From Acidimicrobiaceae bacterium (GTDB lineage: Bacteria; Actinomycetota; Acidimicrobiia; Acidimicrobiales; Acidimicrobiaceae): DNA of 35,600 nucleotides. The position numbers were made by a program, and so were the translations under genes. The stretch's first letter is position 1, and each line of letters starts with the position of its first letter. Positions 29,277 to 35,600 of this stretch are shown here, piece by piece. The DNA is taken from NCBI GenBank assembly GCA_013044385.1, contig JABEUN010000014.1, forward strand, positions 1 to 35,600, read 5' to 3'. The notes under the pieces were generated by a model that did no database searches, was not told the DNA's origin, and worked only from the letters and a program-made list of their open reading frames with translations.

Positions 29277-30199
29277 CATATTCAGGAACAGACCGCTACT
29301 TCAATGACGACACGATTCGCTCCTATCTCAAGGAGATAGGAGAAACGTCGCTGCTCAGCGGTCCTGAAGAGGTAGAGCTCGCAAAAGCGATCGAGGCGGG
29401 TCTGGAGGCGAAGGAGCGTATAGCGGCTGGATCTGGTACTCCTTTGGACTCTGCAGTTGTCCGTGCTGGTGATGATGCACGGGAGCGGTTGACCAAGGCC
29501 AACCTAAGGCTCGTGGTCTCTATCGCAAAGAACTACCGTGGTCGGGGACTCAGCTTTTCTGATCTGATCCAGGAGGGGAACATCGGCCTGATGAGGGCCG
29601 TGGAGAAGTTCGACTACGCCAAGGGATTTCGGTTTTCGACCTATGCGACCTGGTGGATCCGCCAGGCGATCGTGAAGGGTCTCGGCGAACAGGTCAGGCC
29701 GATTCGTATGCCGGCGCACGCGGCCGAACTGCTGAATGAGATATACCGGGCACGACGTCAGCTGCTTCAAGAGCTCGAGCGTGAGCCAAGCCCGGAGGAA
29801 CTTGCCAGGATGGTGGGGGCCGACGTCCATAAGGTGAATGAGCTTTTGCAGCTCTCTCGCGACACGCTGTCGCTCGAAGCGCCAGCGGGATCGAGCTTCG
29901 ATTCACAGTCCTTAGGTGACACACTGAAGGACGAAGATTCCGAGGATCCATTCATGATGTTGGACCGGGAAGTTGTTTCATCGGTTGTGAACGATGCTTT
30001 GGGATTCCTGACCGACCGAGAACAGGAGATTATGCGTTACCGATTTGGGGTGGGTAGCGATAGGCCGCACTCCATCGATGAGACGAGCGAGCTTCATGAG
30101 ATCTCCAGAGAGCGTATCCGGCAGCTTGAACAGAAGGCGATCATGAGGCTCCGGGATCCACGCATCAACAAGGAACTCAAGGGTCTCTTAGAGGGCTGA
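29273..30199 (+). CDS. sigA: Principal sigma-70 factor (RpoD/SigA/HrdB type)
   Basis: A 308-aa sigma factor with region 1.2 ([32 protein letters not shown]), region 2 ([38 protein letters not shown] and [13 protein letters not shown]), region 3 ([35 protein letters not shown]) and region 4.2 ([20 protein letters not shown]). It lacks a long region 1.1, so it is short for a principal sigma factor and nearer to SigB/HrdB-like short forms. Being the only sigma gene linked to dnaG, it is still likely to be the housekeeping or a primary-like factor. Coupled to dnaG by a 4-base overlap. Confidence 0.9.
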
Positions 30200-30244
30200 A
30201 AAGTGTCGGTCGATGTCGCTTGAGCGGCTAGCATCCTTTGAGAT

Positions 30245-30317
30245 TCCGGGGTAGCTCAATTGGCAGAGCACGCGACTGTTAATCGTGTGGTTGAGAGTTC
30301 GAGTCTCTCCCCCGGAG
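30245..30317 (+). tRNA. tRNA-Asn(GTT)
   Basis: It folds as a full cloverleaf: acceptor TCCGGGG/CCCCGGA (30245-30251, 30310-30316), D stem GCTC/GAGC, anticodon stem CGCGA/TCGTG (last pair G-U type wobble tolerated) with loop CTGTTAA and anticodon GTT at 30278-30280, T arm GAGAG-TTCGAGT-CTCTC, discriminator G. CCA is not encoded. Confidence 0.95.
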
Positions 30318-30356
30318 CTTTTGATTTTGCTGCTGCCTTTTTGGTTGTAGCACATC

Positions 30357-30430
<74 letters not shown>

Positions 30431-30681
30431 TATATATTTATGCTGGTGAAAACCAATTAAGTTATAGGGTTTGGATTTCCCTGACCTCGGAGAACCCGAC
30501 TTTACAAGTCTCCTGGGTATGCATGTGGGATCCGACCACCCTCTGGTTCTTGAGCCATGATTTTCAGTTATGCCCGAAATTTGGTCTACCAGAGTGGAGT
30601 TTAAAGCTCAACTCAGTGCTTGGAGTCATTTGTTGGCTCACTTACTCTGACTTATATGCGCGCGGGGTGGACAACTGATTC

Positions 30682-30743
30682 GTTCGTTAATATGGACGAA
30701 AATGGCACTCTATGCAATAAATATGGTAAAAGAGTTCGTTATT
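30682..30743 (+). promoter_or_regulatory. Candidate AbiEi operator repeats
   Basis: GTTCGTTAAT (30682-30691) and GTTCGTTATT (30734-30743) are near-identical direct repeats 52 bases apart, about five helical turns. The first also forms the inverted pair TTCGT/ACGAA across 8 bases. AbiEi antitoxins are known to repress their own operon by binding repeats upstream. That these are the sites is inference. Confidence 0.4.
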
Positions 30744-30746
30744 TGG

Positions 30747-30758
30747 TACACTATTGTC
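30747..30758 (+). promoter_or_regulatory. Probable leaderless promoter of abiEi
   Basis: TACACT (30747-30752) ends 6 bases before ATG 30759, with no ribosome binding site between them. The spacing is the same as at glyS and the GntR gene in this window. No clear -35. Confidence 0.45.
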
Positions 30759-31325
30759 ATGACGGCGCTGGATGTGCTCTTGGAAGTTGCTATTCAGCAA
30801 CACGGATATGTGACAGTAGGGGATGCTCGAAGAGTCGGAGTTGACCCTCAACGACTTCGGGCGCTTGCACTGCGGGGTCGCGCTGAGCAGCGAGCACGAG
30901 GTCTATACCGTATTTCCTTAGTGCCGCATCGCCCTCACGACGACTATGCTGAGGCAGTTCTTCTAGCTGGAGACCATGGTGTTCTCGCTGGCGAAGCTGC
31001 TCTTGACCTTTGGGACCTTGCTGACGTTAATCCACACCGGATCGAAGTCATAGTACCCCCGGGTCTGCGAATACGACGAATTCGAAAGGACGTCGTCTTC
31101 TTGAGGAGAGATATTCCAACAGACCAAATTGACGAAGTAGATGACATCCGGGTCGTCTCCCCTTTTCTCGCCATCGAGGTTGCCATGGACGAGGGTGTTG
31201 ACGGCAGCCTTATAGAGCAGGCCATTACAAAGGCCAGTCGGCGTGAACTAATAGGGACCCGTCGAGCGGCAAGGCTTTTGGCAGCTCTTGATGATAAGGA
31301 GAGGGGGCTAAGTGAGCGAAAGTGA
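30759..31325 (+). CDS. abiEi: AbiEi-type antitoxin (type IV toxin-antitoxin)
   Basis: A 188-aa protein with an N-terminal winged helix (ALDVLLEVAIQQHGYVTVGDARRVGVDPQRLRALALRGRAEQRARGLYRI, about 2-51), the hallmark of the AbiEi antitoxin family, then a C-terminal antitoxin part (GDHGVLAGEAALDLWDLADVNPHRIEVIVPPG...VVFLRRDIP...VSPFLAIEVAMDEG). In this family the N-terminus represses the operon while the C-terminus counters the toxin without a stable complex. ATG 30759 is chosen; earlier in-frame starts (30702) lie upstream of the -10 box. It overlaps abiEii by 14 bases in the order antitoxin-toxin. Confidence 0.85.
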   Translation: MTALDVLLEVAIQQHGYVTVGDARRVGVDPQRLRALALRGRAEQRARGLYRISLVPHRPHDDYAEAVLLAGDHGVLAGEAALDLWDLADVNPHRIEVIVPPGLRIRRIRKDVVFLRRDIPTDQIDEVDDIRVVSPFLAIEVAMDEGVDGSLIEQAITKASRRELIGTRRAARLLAALDDKERGLSERK

Positions 31326-32175
31326 TCGGATTCCAGGCGATAGACAGCACTTGGAACGACTAATTGATGTGTGGGCACGAGAAGGATCTGAACTCGGACA
31401 GAGTCGCTTGCGACGTCTTTTGGGATTTACGGCTATCGCGGCCATGCTTGACGGACTACCTGGAGAAGATGGCAGGGCAAGACTCGTCATTAAGGGTGGG
31501 GCAGGACTGCAGTTGCGTCTTGGCGCTCGGGCGCGTACTACCAGCGATCTTGATACCGCATTTCGCGGAGATATCATTGAAGCGCGTGATCTTCTTCGGT
31601 CTGCGCTTAAGAGAGGTTGGTCTGGGTTTGAGGGCGTGCTCTCTGACGAAGCAGAGATCACCCGCGCTGGCATAACTCCTCCGCCATGGAGGGGAAAGAT
31701 AAAGTTGGCGTACAATTCCAAACCCTTTTCGACTGTAGCATTCGAGATGTCGGCAGCTGAAGGCGCTAGCTTAGATTCCCCGGAATATCACAGGGTGGCG
31801 ATTTCCCTAACGCCGGTTCAATTGCCTGATCCTGGTAAGATTGCATTTCTGCCAGCAAGGTACCAGATTGCTCAAAAATTGCATGCGTGCACCGAGCCAC
31901 CCACAGACGGTCATCCGAACATTAGAGTCAGGGACCTTTACGACATTCTGTTGATCGCGGAATTAGTTGATTTGGAGGAGTATCCGGCTCTGTCAGCTGC
32001 TTGTAGGGAGATTTTTGAACTCCGAGGCAGGCATTCCTGGCCGCCGGTACTTTCAGAGCAGCCGTCGTGGCGAGAAACCTGGCGACGTCTTGCAGAGGAT
32101 GGGCAGGTCGAGTTGACATTTGACCGGGCATTTGCTGACGTCGTTGATTTGGTCGCGAGAATCGAGACGGCCTAG
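31312..32175 (+). CDS. abiEii: AbiEii-type nucleotidyltransferase toxin
   Basis: A 287-aa toxin of the DNA polymerase-beta-like nucleotidyltransferase fold. The four family motifs are recognisable: KGGAGLQLRLG with TTSDLD (motif I, catalytic acidic pair), FSTVAFEMS (motif II strand), ARYQIAQKLHACTEP (motif III Lys) and VRDLYDILLI (motif IV Asp). Toxins of this family act on tRNA acceptor ends or other targets to stop growth, giving phage abortive infection; the precise target here is unknown. The GTG start follows GGAGAGGGGG. The reading frame is intact, so the pair may be functional. Confidence 0.87.
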   Translation: MSESDRIPGDRQHLERLIDVWAREGSELGQSRLRRLLGFTAIAAMLDGLPGEDGRARLVIKGGAGLQLRLGARARTTSDLDTAFRGDIIEARDLLRSALKRGWSGFEGVLSDEAEITRAGITPPPWRGKIKLAYNSKPFSTVAFEMSAAEGASLDSPEYHRVAISLTPVQLPDPGKIAFLPARYQIAQKLHACTEPPTDGHPNIRVRDLYDILLIAELVDLEEYPALSAACREIFELRGRHSWPPVLSEQPSWRETWRRLAEDGQVELTFDRAFADVVDLVARIETA

Positions 32176-32487
32176 GCTTACCCAACTCGTCAGTGCGAGA
32201 ACACGACTACAACTATAAATATGATGGAGACGGCATTTCCGACTTGTTCTTACCTGAATGTGGGTCAAGAAGTTTCGATTGAGAGGTAGTTGACTTGCCG
32301 AATTTGCATCTCCTCGGGTGACTGATAAAGCAACCCTGTCCACCCAACAATCCACCCAACAAATGTGTCCGAATGCGTCCCATCCAGTCTCACTGGGTCG
32401 CAATGGTCTTTATATTGCGAAACCGGGAGCTGCAATTATGGGACAGGCTGCGCACTTTGACTACCAGTTCGGACACTTTCAAGCCAT
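32176..32487. other. Non-coding right arm of the island
   Basis: No gene is seen. It holds a tandem 12-base repeat (32339-32362) about 125 bases before the right att copy, and a short inverted repeat (TCGCAAT ... ATTGCGA, 32398-32423). This is the position where an integrase gene or its arm sites would be expected, but no integrase domain is visible in any frame. Confidence 0.4.
32339..32362. repeat. Tandem 12-base repeat near the right att copy
   Basis: TCCACCCAACAA is present twice head-to-tail (32339-32350 and 32351-32362). Paired short direct repeats 100-200 bases from an attachment core resemble arm-type integrase sites; the function is inferred from position only. Confidence 0.6.
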
Positions 32488-32530
32488 CTCATAATCCCTT
32501 GGTCGTGGGTTCGATCCCCACCGGGCCCAC
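32488..32530 (+). repeat. Direct repeat copy 2 (attR-like), orphan tRNA-Met 3' half
   Basis: Exact 43-base copy of 30388-30430. No 5' half of a tRNA precedes it. The next bases make ...GGGCCC-ACCA, i.e. a discriminator followed by an encoded CCA; copy 1 reads ACTA. This suggests that copy 2 is the original chromosomal 3' end. Confidence 0.9.
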
Positions 32531-32652
32531 CATTTACGCTGGTCATACTTCATGAAGTCCTAATTTGCAAACAGCGGCTGCTCGGAGAGACCCAACATTG
32601 CAACAATCATGGCCCAGAATCCGAGGAAAGAGTCGGTCTAGGAGGTCCGCTT

Positions 32653-32880
32653 CTATTCGGGCGATATCGATATTCGCTCGAAAACCCAGTCGGTGAGTGT
32701 TTCGATACTGACCTTGTTGTTTGCTATTGCTACCATCAGCTCGACGGTTTGGTCGCCGCCAGGGTCACCAATTGGCGGAACCCAAATATTACCGTTGCGC
32801 TCGACAAATTCCGTTCCCCCGAACGTTCTTTGGGATCCCTCCCTTTCTGTCTTCGATCGTGGGGCGCCCGAGGTTACCCA
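32653..32880 (-). pseudogene. C-terminal fragment of an unknown gene
   Basis: An open frame of 75 codons on the minus strand with no usable start, ending at TAG 32655-32653. The part NGNIWVPPIGDPGGDQTVELMVAIANNKVSIETLTDWVFERI reads like genuine protein sequence (alternating helix/loop, no low-complexity bias), not like a shadow frame. It is probably a gene tail cut by the arriving IS sequence near 32830-32860. I do not recognise the family. Confidence 0.35.
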
Positions 32881-32908
32881 TTATGACCAGTTGCTGGAGG
32901 TCCGCTGA
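32840..32908 (+). pseudogene. Remnant of IstA transposase (C-terminus)
   Basis: The plus-strand frame ending at TGA 32908 closes with RGAPEVTHYDQLLEVR, which resembles the usual C-terminal end of IstA transposases (a YDxLL motif). Its stop overlaps the ATG of istB in the TGATG pattern normal for istA-istB. The frame is open back to 32693, but upstream of about 32840 it no longer looks like IstA (no DDE region), so the transposase is lost. The left limit is approximate. Confidence 0.5.
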
Positions 32909-33675
32909 TGAAAAGCGACGCTGGGGCCCTGGCCTCCATTGATATAAGTGCACGCTCGCTGAGACTGCCGAGCGTTCGTAGAAGGGCCCAATCCCAAGCC
33001 GGCGAGGCCGAGCGAGACCATGCCACCTATCTCGAGTTCCGCGCCAACGTGCTGGCAGCAGAGTTCGACGATCGCGAGGAGCGCAGGCGCCAGCGCAGGA
33101 TATCAGCTGCAGGTTTCCCACGCTTGAAGTGCCTCAGCAACTTCGACCTGTACGCTGCTACAAATGTCAATGCCGCCACCATTGCGATGCTCAGCTCCGG
33201 CGGCTACTTGGAGCGGGGTGAGCCGGTGGTCATGCTCGGCGACTCGGGAACCGGCAAGAGCCACCTGCTGATAGTCCTCGGCCTAAAGGCCTGCGAACAA
33301 GGCCACTCGGTTCGCTACGTGACATGCGCGCAACTGGTAAACGAACTAGCCGAAGCCGCCGATAAGAGGCGCCTCTCCAAGCTCGTGGCGCGCTACGGAC
33401 GCGTAGACCTACTGTTGCTCGATGAACTGGGCTACGTGGCCCTAGATGCAAGAGGGGCCGAGCTTCTCTTTCAGATTCTCACCGAACGCGAGGAGAAGTC
33501 CTCGGTCACCACCGCTTCCAATCTGCCGTTCTCGGAGTGGGGCAAGGTCATAAGTGACGTTCGACTGGTAGCCGCCATTATCGACCGGCTCACATTCAAC
33601 GCGACGATCATCGAGACCGGCTCCGACAGCTATCGTCTTTGCGCTACCAAAGCCAAGCAGGCGCTAAAGTCCTGA
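32908..33675 (+). CDS. istB: IstB-like ATPase of an IS21-family element
   Basis: A 255-aa AAA+ helper protein of IS21-type transposition. It has an N-terminal helical part (AERDHATYLEFRANVLAAEFDDREERRRQRRI), Walker A VMLGDSGTGKSHLL near residue 112, Walker B VDLLLLDELGYV, and the sensor region TTASNLPFSEWGKV, then LTFNATIIETGSDSYRL. It is of full length and intact. IstB loads and directs IstA on target DNA; with istA reduced to a tail it cannot transpose this copy alone. The start overlaps the istA stop. Confidence 0.92.
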   Translation: MKSDAGALASIDISARSLRLPSVRRRAQSQAGEAERDHATYLEFRANVLAAEFDDREERRRQRRISAAGFPRLKCLSNFDLYAATNVNAATIAMLSSGGYLERGEPVVMLGDSGTGKSHLLIVLGLKACEQGHSVRYVTCAQLVNELAEAADKRRLSKLVARYGRVDLLLLDELGYVALDARGAELLFQILTEREEKSSVTTASNLPFSEWGKVISDVRLVAAIIDRLTFNATIIETGSDSYRLCATKAKQALKS

Positions 33676-34251
33676 CTATCGGATACGCTGGAGTCCGACA
33701 TTCGTCAGGGCGAGATTGAAGGCCTCTGGGTCGAAGCTGCCCCCAGCCCACACTAGGTAGTCCTCGTGCTCTTCGTGCGATACGTCGCCTATGGCTTCGA
33801 GGAAGTACTTGTAACCTGGCGTACCGCCCACGTCTTCGGGAGGGCAGGCGCGCTCGCCCCCGAGACAGACGGCGTGGAGCAGAGCTGAGTCTACCGATGA
33901 GATGTCTTCGAGCACAACGAGGTGCTCCCAGCCGTCGCCGTAGTCGTACCGATATAAGAAGGTGTCGCCGACGTCTAAGAGATTGGCGATCTTTATGCCG
34001 TCTTCGATGATATCGTCTGGGAAGTCACCCCAGTCGTCGATGCCGGACATCACGTAGCGCTTGTCCTTGATATCAAAGGCGTGAAGGTGCGAATCCTGCC
34101 AGCCCATCACCTCCTGAAGGACTCGGTGAAGCCGGGGAAGCGCAAACGAAGCCGGCACCAGGATCCGACGCCAGATTGGCGGGTCAACATCGAGCAGAGT
34201 GATCTTCAGCTGAAGCACAGTATTCGAGAGTTTCAGAGAGGGTCCGCCCAT
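33676..34251 (-). CDS. Plasmid pRiA4b ORF-3-like protein
   Basis: A 191-aa protein of the PRiA4_ORF3 family. Typical sequences: LQLKITLLDVDPPIWRRILVPASFALPRLHRVLQEVMGWQDSHLHAF, FLYRYDYGDGWEHLVVLED, GERACPPEDVGGTPGYKYFLEAI and WAGGSFDPEAFNLALTN. The biochemical role of the family is unknown; members are often plasmid- or mobile-element-borne. Its stop abuts the istB stop with no bases between (convergent). It lies between istB and an IS-end-like segment, so it may be a passenger of the element. Confidence 0.88.
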   Translation of the reverse strand: MGGPSLKLSNTVLQLKITLLDVDPPIWRRILVPASFALPRLHRVLQEVMGWQDSHLHAFDIKDKRYVMSGIDDWGDFPDDIIEDGIKIANLLDVGDTFLYRYDYGDGWEHLVVLEDISSVDSALLHAVCLGGERACPPEDVGGTPGYKYFLEAIGDVSHEEHEDYLVWAGGSFDPEAFNLALTNVGLQRIR

Positions 34252-34259
34252 CCCTTCAG

Positions 34260-34342
34260 CCTAGGAGCCACCGTCAAGTTGTGGGTGGGGCCATTTTCGA
34301 TGCGCGCGGTGGGGCCAAATTAACTTGACATTCCTAGGAGCC
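34260..34342. repeat. IS-end-like segment with inverted repeats and 10-bp flanking direct repeats
   Basis: CCTAGGAGCC occurs at 34260-34269 and 34333-34342. Between them lie GTCAAGTT (34273-34280) and its inverse AACTTGAC (34322-34329), and inside these two direct copies of GGTGGGGCCA (34284-34293 and 34308-34317). Repeated GGTGGGGCC blocks near TTGACA are, as I recall, common at the ends of IS21-like elements. TTGACA (34325-34330) could act as an outward -35. The direct repeats look like a target duplication around a mini-element. Confidence 0.55.
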
Positions 34343-34361
34343 CAAAGAGATGTACTATGCT

Positions 34362-34400
34362 CGCTTGGTGGAGACCTACCGGGTCTCCTAAATCCAAGCG
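34362..34400. repeat. Long two-stage hairpin
   Basis: CGCTTGG (34362-34368) pairs with CCAAGCG (34394-34400), and inside it GGAGACC (34370-34376) pairs with GGTCTCC (34382-34388): 14 bp in two stems with small internal bulges and a 5-base loop. No T-run follows, so it is not a typical terminator. Its role is unknown. Confidence 0.7.
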
Positions 34401-35075
34401 CAACAGTCTCCATCGAATCTAGGGTGGTTCAATGGCTCAAATCGAGGTCCTAACGCATTGCCGACTCGACTGACGCTGCGAATGCCGGGGACTTGCATTT
34501 GGCATAATGAGGTCACCCCCGTTGCAGTGACGGGCAGGATCGCGAGGGTGCGCTGCACTAGGCGTTCCAGAATTCCCTGAATTGGCAAGTCGGTCACCAT
34601 GGTCTAGGCGAGCTCGCTAAGCACCGTCGAGAGTTGACGTTCGGTCGTCATTGGCGCGTAGGCTCCAATCGAGTCCTGCTGGGTGGCCTGACTGGAACAC
34701 CGCTGAACTGGTGCCAAAATAGGTCTTATGTTTTCATGCCAGAAGGCCCGCTAGAACCTTCCCGTGGGTTTGAAAAACTGGCTGCCAACGTTGGGCTGAC
34801 ATCTGGACTCTTTTGCATCTCCAATCAGGCTCACTAGTGGGCGAGATGCTCTGGTGATAGACAGGGTGTTGCCTTCAACCATGAAAGTCCATTTCTGGTG
34901 GGGCCCAGGACATCGGAATAGGTCGGCCACCCACTGCGGTCAGCCACCTAGCAGACATCTGGGTACTCCGATAGGGTTCCCGGCTTCGACAAAGCTCGCC
35001 GATCAGACTGGCTATACGGCTGCTGGTCTCATTCATTGCACGTTCTCGACTGGCGCGTTACATTCAAACTGCTAA
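34401..35075. other. Region without convincing genes
   Basis: About 675 bases. Only short frames are present (up to 73 codons), none with a domain, good start or consistent codon use. It may be decayed IS or plasmid sequence; I cannot assign any fragment. The right end holds the promoter of the GntR gene. Confidence 0.45.
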
Positions 35076-35087
35076 TATGCTATAGGT
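35076..35087 (+). promoter_or_regulatory. Probable leaderless promoter of the GntR gene
   Basis: TATGCT (35076-35081) ends 6 bases before ATG 35088; an overlapping alternative -10 is TAATAT (35073-35078). No Shine-Dalgarno sequence is present. Confidence 0.45.
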
Positions 35088-35510
35088 ATGACAGAGGGAA
35101 AGATCCAGTTTTCCGTTGATCGGACTACCGGCATCCCCCCCTACCTCCAAATAGTTGAGCAGGTCAAAGAGGCATTGCATATCGGGAAAGTCGCTGTGGG
35201 AGATTACCTGCCGTCAGTCAGCGAAGTGGCTCGAGTAACCGCGATCAATGCTAATACGGTCATGAAGGCTTATAGAGAACTTGAGTACGCTGGAATCGCT
35301 CAAGCACTCCAAGGCGTTGGAACCGTAATTGTTGGCCTTCCTCAAGGTACGAATCCTGAGCTATTTGAGGCCTACCGACAAAGGTTCGAAGACCTCGTGA
35401 CCCAGGCAAGACAGGACGGACTTGCCTGGGAATCTCTGTCACACCTTACGAACACAGCCATTCGCTCTATCAAAGCTAAGGAGGCGGCAAGTGGTTGCAA
35501 TATCAGCTAA
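35088..35510 (+). CDS. GntR-family regulator, YtrA type
   Basis: A 140-aa protein. The N-terminal GntR winged helix (PPYLQIVEQVKEALHIGKVAVGDYLPSVSEVARVTAINANTVMKAYRELEYAGIAQALQGVGTVI) is followed by only a short helical tail, which defines the YtrA subfamily. Such repressors usually control the ABC transporter genes directly behind them, as here. The usual 'LPSVRELA' is LPSVSEVA. It overlaps the next gene by 20 bases. Confidence 0.88.
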   Translation: MTEGKIQFSVDRTTGIPPYLQIVEQVKEALHIGKVAVGDYLPSVSEVARVTAINANTVMKAYRELEYAGIAQALQGVGTVIVGLPQGTNPELFEAYRQRFEDLVTQARQDGLAWESLSHLTNTAIRSIKAKEAASGCNIS

Positions 35511-35600
35511 GGGTCTGTCGAAGCGTTACCAGGAAAATGCCGCTTTGGACCTAGCCACCTTTGAGGTCCCTAAGCGCTCCGTGTCGGCTCTGGTTGGAAA
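35491..35600 (+). CDS. ABC transporter ATP-binding protein (start only)
   Basis: Partial: 36 codons, cut by the end of the window. GTG 35491 follows a perfect AAGGAGG at 6 bases. The sequence AISAKGLSKRYQENAALDLATFEV...SVSALVG is the standard beginning of an ABC ATPase (the A-loop Tyr in KRYQ, then the strand before Walker A). With the YtrA-type regulator it forms a usual GntR-ABC operon; substrate unknown. Confidence 0.8.
   Translation, partial: MVAISAKGLSKRYQENAALDLATFEVPKRSVSALVG

Follow-up and report, generated by a model that had tools for sequence, protein, structure and literature searches.

A stretch of 83 bases at positions 34260–34342 of the window (the whole stretch of DNA analysed here, 35,600 nucleotides) raises the question of whether a miniature mobile element, composed of nothing but its own ends, can persist with its target duplication still visible. 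Within these bases CCTAGGAGCC occurs twice, at 34260–34269 and 34333–34342 (a spacing of 73, checked on the letters of the window), GTCAAGTT at 34273–34280 is complementary in 8/8 positions to AACTTGAC at 34322–34329, with 41 bases between the two, and GGTGGGGCCA lies at 34284–34293 and again at 34308–34317, at a spacing of 24. A sequence-only reading had pointed out these repeats, and all of its letters and coordinates were verified in the window; it took them for a collapsed insertion sequence (IS) or mini-element made only of ends, framed by a 10-base target duplication. The evidence below indicates that the 83 bases almost certainly form the right-hand end region of one IS21-family IS copy that is truncated on its left and carries a pRiA4b ORF-3-like passenger gene.

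How unusual the repeats are was gauged against 100 dinucleotide shuffles. Exact direct repeats of at least 10 bases within 100 bases number 7 in the window; the shuffles average 3.2 and reach 7 at most, so that a 10-base direct repeat alone is at the upper limit of what chance produces. A 10-base repeat set tightly around an 8-base inverted repeat was found once in the window (mean of 0 in 100 shuffles), by a test of the combination that was devised only after the case was known. It is this exact 10-base repeat, symmetric around an exact 8-base inverted repeat and absent as a combination from the shuffles, that speaks for an independent 63-base MITE, bounded by 8-base inverted ends, which would have entered at this site and generated a 10-base target duplication.

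The sequence to the left of the 83 bases places them in a larger structure. An IS21 remnant spans approximately 32786–34336 and contains, in this order, the last ~40 codons of istA, an open istB, a convergent passenger and the right end. The istA remnant (32786–32908, forward strand), whose translation ends in YDQLLEVR*, overlaps the istB ATG with its TGA stop. In a tblastn comparison with the whole window, the IstA of L050, the nearest relative found (IstB 90% and passenger 74% identical), matched 32786–32902 with its residues 471–509 (49% identity, E 7e-6) and gave no other significant match. The istB frame (32908–33675, forward strand), which encodes the IS21 helper ATPase in 255 aa, was assigned by Pfam IstB_IS21 (PF01695, E 5.6e-59) and by NCBIfam NF038214 (242.8 bits, cut-off 200). 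The passenger (33676–34251, reverse strand) encodes a plasmid pRiA4b ORF-3-like protein of 191 aa (Pfam PRiA4_ORF3, E 4.4e-60), the sequence of which matches the solved structure 2i1s (E 2.6e-34). L050 DNA aligns unbroken to window positions 32832–34336 (blast, 81% over 1507 columns), and the left breakpoint of the remnant falls at ~32786–32832, the latter being the base at which this alignment begins. The window is also matched by L127, a decayed fragment from a genome belonging to the same family, in an alignment (78% over 758 columns) that starts at the end of istB, takes in the passenger and reaches into the right end. Thus, the recognition of IS21-type ends with internal repeats and of an IS that had partly collapsed was sound, and the idea of an element made only of ends was not, as there is a single right end with istB and the passenger immediately upstream.

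To the right end itself we applied an alignment of the window with nine relatives picked from passenger-bearing loci. The first CCTAGGAGCC (34260–34269, forward strand), between the passenger start and the subterminal repeat R2, falls inside the element in 10/10 rows; its counterpart is CTTAGGAGTC in L050 and ATTAGAAGT-like in several of the other eight relatives, and L127 reads CTTAGGATCC at the same place. The left arm of the inverted pair, GTCAAGTT (34273–34280, forward strand), belongs to a variable linker and is absent from all nine aligned relatives, L050 having about GTCGAGCT there. Further to the right, the conserved R2 (GGTGGGGCCA onwards; 34284–34307, forward strand) follows a 24-base period to the terminal repeat R1, which together with the right IS terminus occupies 34308–34336 (forward strand) and reads GGTGGGGCCAAATTAACTTGACATTCCTA. 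The R1/R2 region with its GGTGGGGCCA blocks is nearly invariant in the 10-row alignment, and ACTTGACATTC is invariant. Similarity ceases after ATTCCTA, at window base 34336, which is also where the pairwise alignment with L050 stops. With the terminus placed there, AACTTGACATTCCTA is the terminal sequence of the IS, and the second CCTAGGAGCC (34333–34342, forward strand) is made up of 4 terminal bases (CCTA) and 6 bases of flank (GGAGCC). Hence CCTAGGAGCC does not represent a target duplication: its left copy belongs to the element and has counterparts in the relatives, and its right copy straddles the terminus. The part of the arrangement shown to be non-random, by its conservation among the relatives, is the GGTGGGGCCA pair together with the terminal sequence.

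By analogy with IS21 elements, the two GGTGGGGCCA blocks would be R2 and R1, the sites bound by IstA; passages of published work describe IS21 ends as consisting of two direct repeats, neither of which IstA can do without, and report a terminal CA as well as 5-base duplications for IS5376 (PMC10122671). The terminus reads ATTC(C/T)CA in 8/9 aligned relatives and ATTCCTA in L050, and the window copy likewise ends in TA rather than the usual CA, a dinucleotide that we do not take as defining the IS21 family. This TA terminus is common to the window (34336) and L050 (3858), though their flanks differ. The TA end counts against the IS21 reading to some degree, and a functional IS21 end is not claimed for the window copy.

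Searches for further copies point the same way. The 34200–34400 stretch occurs once in its own genome (2.8 Mb, ~95% complete), where the sequence-only reading had suggested looking for multiple copies with differing flanks, and GTGGGGCCA is not enriched there (17 sites versus 22 for a reversed control pattern). Single-copy, ordinary intergenic DNA had been named as the finding that would speak against a mobile element; the sequence is indeed single-copy, and it is an IS end. The reading had also proposed to look for a full IS21-family element with the same ends; L050 has both ends and the same terminus. Across 397 genomes of the order, an end-pair pattern was found at 25 places in 18 genomes and its reversed control at 15 places, each in a different genome, so that some of the 25 places may be due to chance. 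At 15 of these loci, the retrieved flank contains a match to istA or istB at a threshold of E 1e-4. On the inner side of the remaining 10, one inverted pair lies at 878 bases (in L116) and none within 300, with the reservation that contig edges restrict L113 and L115 to 75 and 219 bases and that L108 and L120 overlap in one locus. In IMG/VR, 39 stretches fit a pattern and none encodes an IstB relative, in a search that reaches close relatives only.

A mini-element or MITE was accordingly rejected on two grounds: (i) the unbroken alignment of L050, together with the homology of the other relatives; (ii) the single copy. The L050 alignment crosses both the left CCTAGGAGCC copy and the left inverted-repeat arm, and relatives carry homologous sequence through the stretch at the same place. 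Given also that the left inverted arm is not conserved, that no second copy exists in the genome and that 0/10 end-pair loci with no istA/istB match in the retrieved flank have an inner-side inverted pair within 300 bases, we attach next to no probability to the independent 63-base MITE, notwithstanding the symmetry of its repeats.

The architecture of the relatives provides the frame for reading the window copy as an IS21 right end. An IstB scan of genome contigs yielded 39 loci, and a passenger relative is present in 19 of them in the same place and orientation, many of the loci without one being cut by contig ends. The relatives have istA-istB-passenger between ends whose GTGGGGCC blocks are mutually inverted. 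A pair of GTGGGGCC-type blocks marks their right end; wherever both blocks are exact in a passenger-bearing locus, they stand 24 bases apart, and in several loci one such block is altered. Full-length istA matches were found in L050 and in other relatives. Single-passenger elements with both termini placed measure 3040–3090 bases in 10 loci (L054–L058, L060, L061 and L064 placed by script, L050 and L068 by hand; contig edges mark the start of L061 and L064), two-passenger elements 3729 (L051) and 3737 bases (L052), and passenger-free elements 2426–2488 bases (L065, L067, L072). Target duplications of 6–7 bases flank 8/12 scorable relatives and are lacking in 4/12, L050 included, where scoring leaves out L052, L061 and L064 (contig-edge starts) as well as rows whose ends the script pattern missed. 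Among script-placed loci with both termini and flanks, 7/10 have a duplication (six of 6 bases, one of 7), and L051, L057 and L058, with both flanks present, have none; of the two loci placed by hand, L068 is flanked by a duplication of 6 bases, whereas L050 is not. The right flank is identical in L055 and L056, which may represent one event.

In having istB, an overlapping istA stub and two direct repeats in its end, and in the short target duplications of its relatives, the window copy resembles the IS21 family (IS21, IS5376); it differs by the missing left end and most of istA, by a terminus of TA and not CA, and by a passenger that did not turn up in the remoter IS21 relatives analysed. 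L050 (MAG Actinomycetes bacterium WY1.bin2; IS21-type, 3069 bases) has the same terminus position and the same TA end, but shows a full-length istA match and both ends where the window copy comprises the right part only. Membership of the window copy in the IS21 family is by descent, as a decayed remnant.

If the 10-base direct repeat is not a target duplication, its origin has to be explained otherwise. Coincidence most likely accounts for the direct repeat as well as for the left arm of the inverted pair, although a GGAGCC flank matching the interior has, by counting, a chance of ~1 in 4096 for one given site, which counts against this reading. A local event involving the inside of the element and its edge (recombination, conversion or slippage) is in our view an unlikely source of the CCTAGGAGCC pair: the six flank bases do equal the interior directly after the shared CCTA, and the L050 interior already reads CTTAGGAG, but there is no intermediate among the aligned relatives, and the 7 such repeats in the window, above the mean as they are, lie inside the shuffle range. 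No empty site was found in four other genomes of the genus, none of which matched the stretch adjoining the IS; one of the four gave a match of 165 bases (84%) at 35064–35228, around the gntR start.

As for the history of the IS21 copy, it presumably arrived by IstA/IstB transposition and would later have been stripped of the left end together with almost the whole of istA. Since both are gone, the remnant is presumably immobile by itself, and IstA supplied from elsewhere, with another end, might mobilise it. That istB and passenger frames are both open despite the loss of istA could be taken to mean that this remnant was retained as useful to the host (domesticated), the right end being left over. 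We consider domestication very unlikely, in that there is one copy in one genome, nothing points to selection after the truncation, and a young deletion would look identical. The window copy is an ordinary decayed copy of a known IS21 kind, its passenger-bearing lineage being a mild extra.

The surroundings of the remnant have features of their own. To its left, at 30357–32536, a tRNA-Met precedes a 2.1-kb segment that contains AbiEi/AbiEii-like genes, ends in a second copy of the tRNA-Met 3' end (49 bases, 96%) and looks like a small tRNA-targeted insertion; in a Pfam scan of the two AbiE-like frames, neither was an integrase. Directly outside the right end of the IS, at 34337–34420, lies a stable hairpin (z-score −3.5, DNA parameters). 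A search of Rfam over 30000–35600 at the gathering threshold returned only two tRNAs and no match at this hairpin.

The distribution of the passenger was related to IstB phylogeny in a tree of 36 rows, comprising the window and those of L021–L025 and L050–L088 with a match of at least about 190 residues (L026–L049 were left out, and the passenger-bearing L075, L078 and L088 were dropped for their short istB). The 17 passenger-bearing rows require 2 changes versus a shuffled mean of 12.2 and sit in an 18-row group with support of 91/82, below the tool's star; L062, the sole passenger-free row of this group, has its istB match in two distant pieces, the second at the end of the stretch. The istB of L021, from a genome of the window's order, is identical in the tree to that of L066, from a contig titled Acidimicrobiia, which makes it likely that the window's host belongs to this class. 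A tandem second pRiA4b ORF-3-like passenger was observed in L051, L052 and L053, in two pieces in L052. The window's own genome gave a single match to the pRiA4b ORF-3 family and, apart from the istB of the window, a single distant IstB piece (36%). Among 60 related genomes, an IstB match at E 1e-20 was obtained in 22, own genome counted, the best other being 64% identical, and the loci taken from this search gave no passenger match. On plasmids, three examined regions from 2780 records with passenger relatives contained no istA/istB matches. L136, on Rhodococcus jostii pRHL1, is the best IstB relative in the plasmid table; it has istA and istB, and its GGGGCC pair starts 26 bases past the istB match, which leaves no room for a passenger. 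Literature searches on pRiA4b ORF-3 with IS21, insertion sequences or transposase, in a scope short of subscription papers and ISfinder, returned by title none on an IS21 passenger, and the passengers shown in the parts of PMC7371123 consulted sit on Tn3-family transposons.

In light of this distribution we tentatively propose that a distinct IS21 lineage, residing mainly in actinobacterial MAGs (many titled Acidimicrobiaceae), has gained a pRiA4b ORF-3-like gene in the interval from istB to the right end and has kept it. Should the passenger indeed have been kept, with a second copy in three loci, the protein may help the element, be it in regulation, host interaction or counter-defence. For the locus itself, a false mini-element is removed, and an IS21 end, with the pair of repeat sites in it, emerges as a structure that can mimic a stand-alone element once the left half is lost. 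For the widespread pRiA4b ORF-3 family, the passenger-bearing IS21 lineage provides a modest lead on its role.
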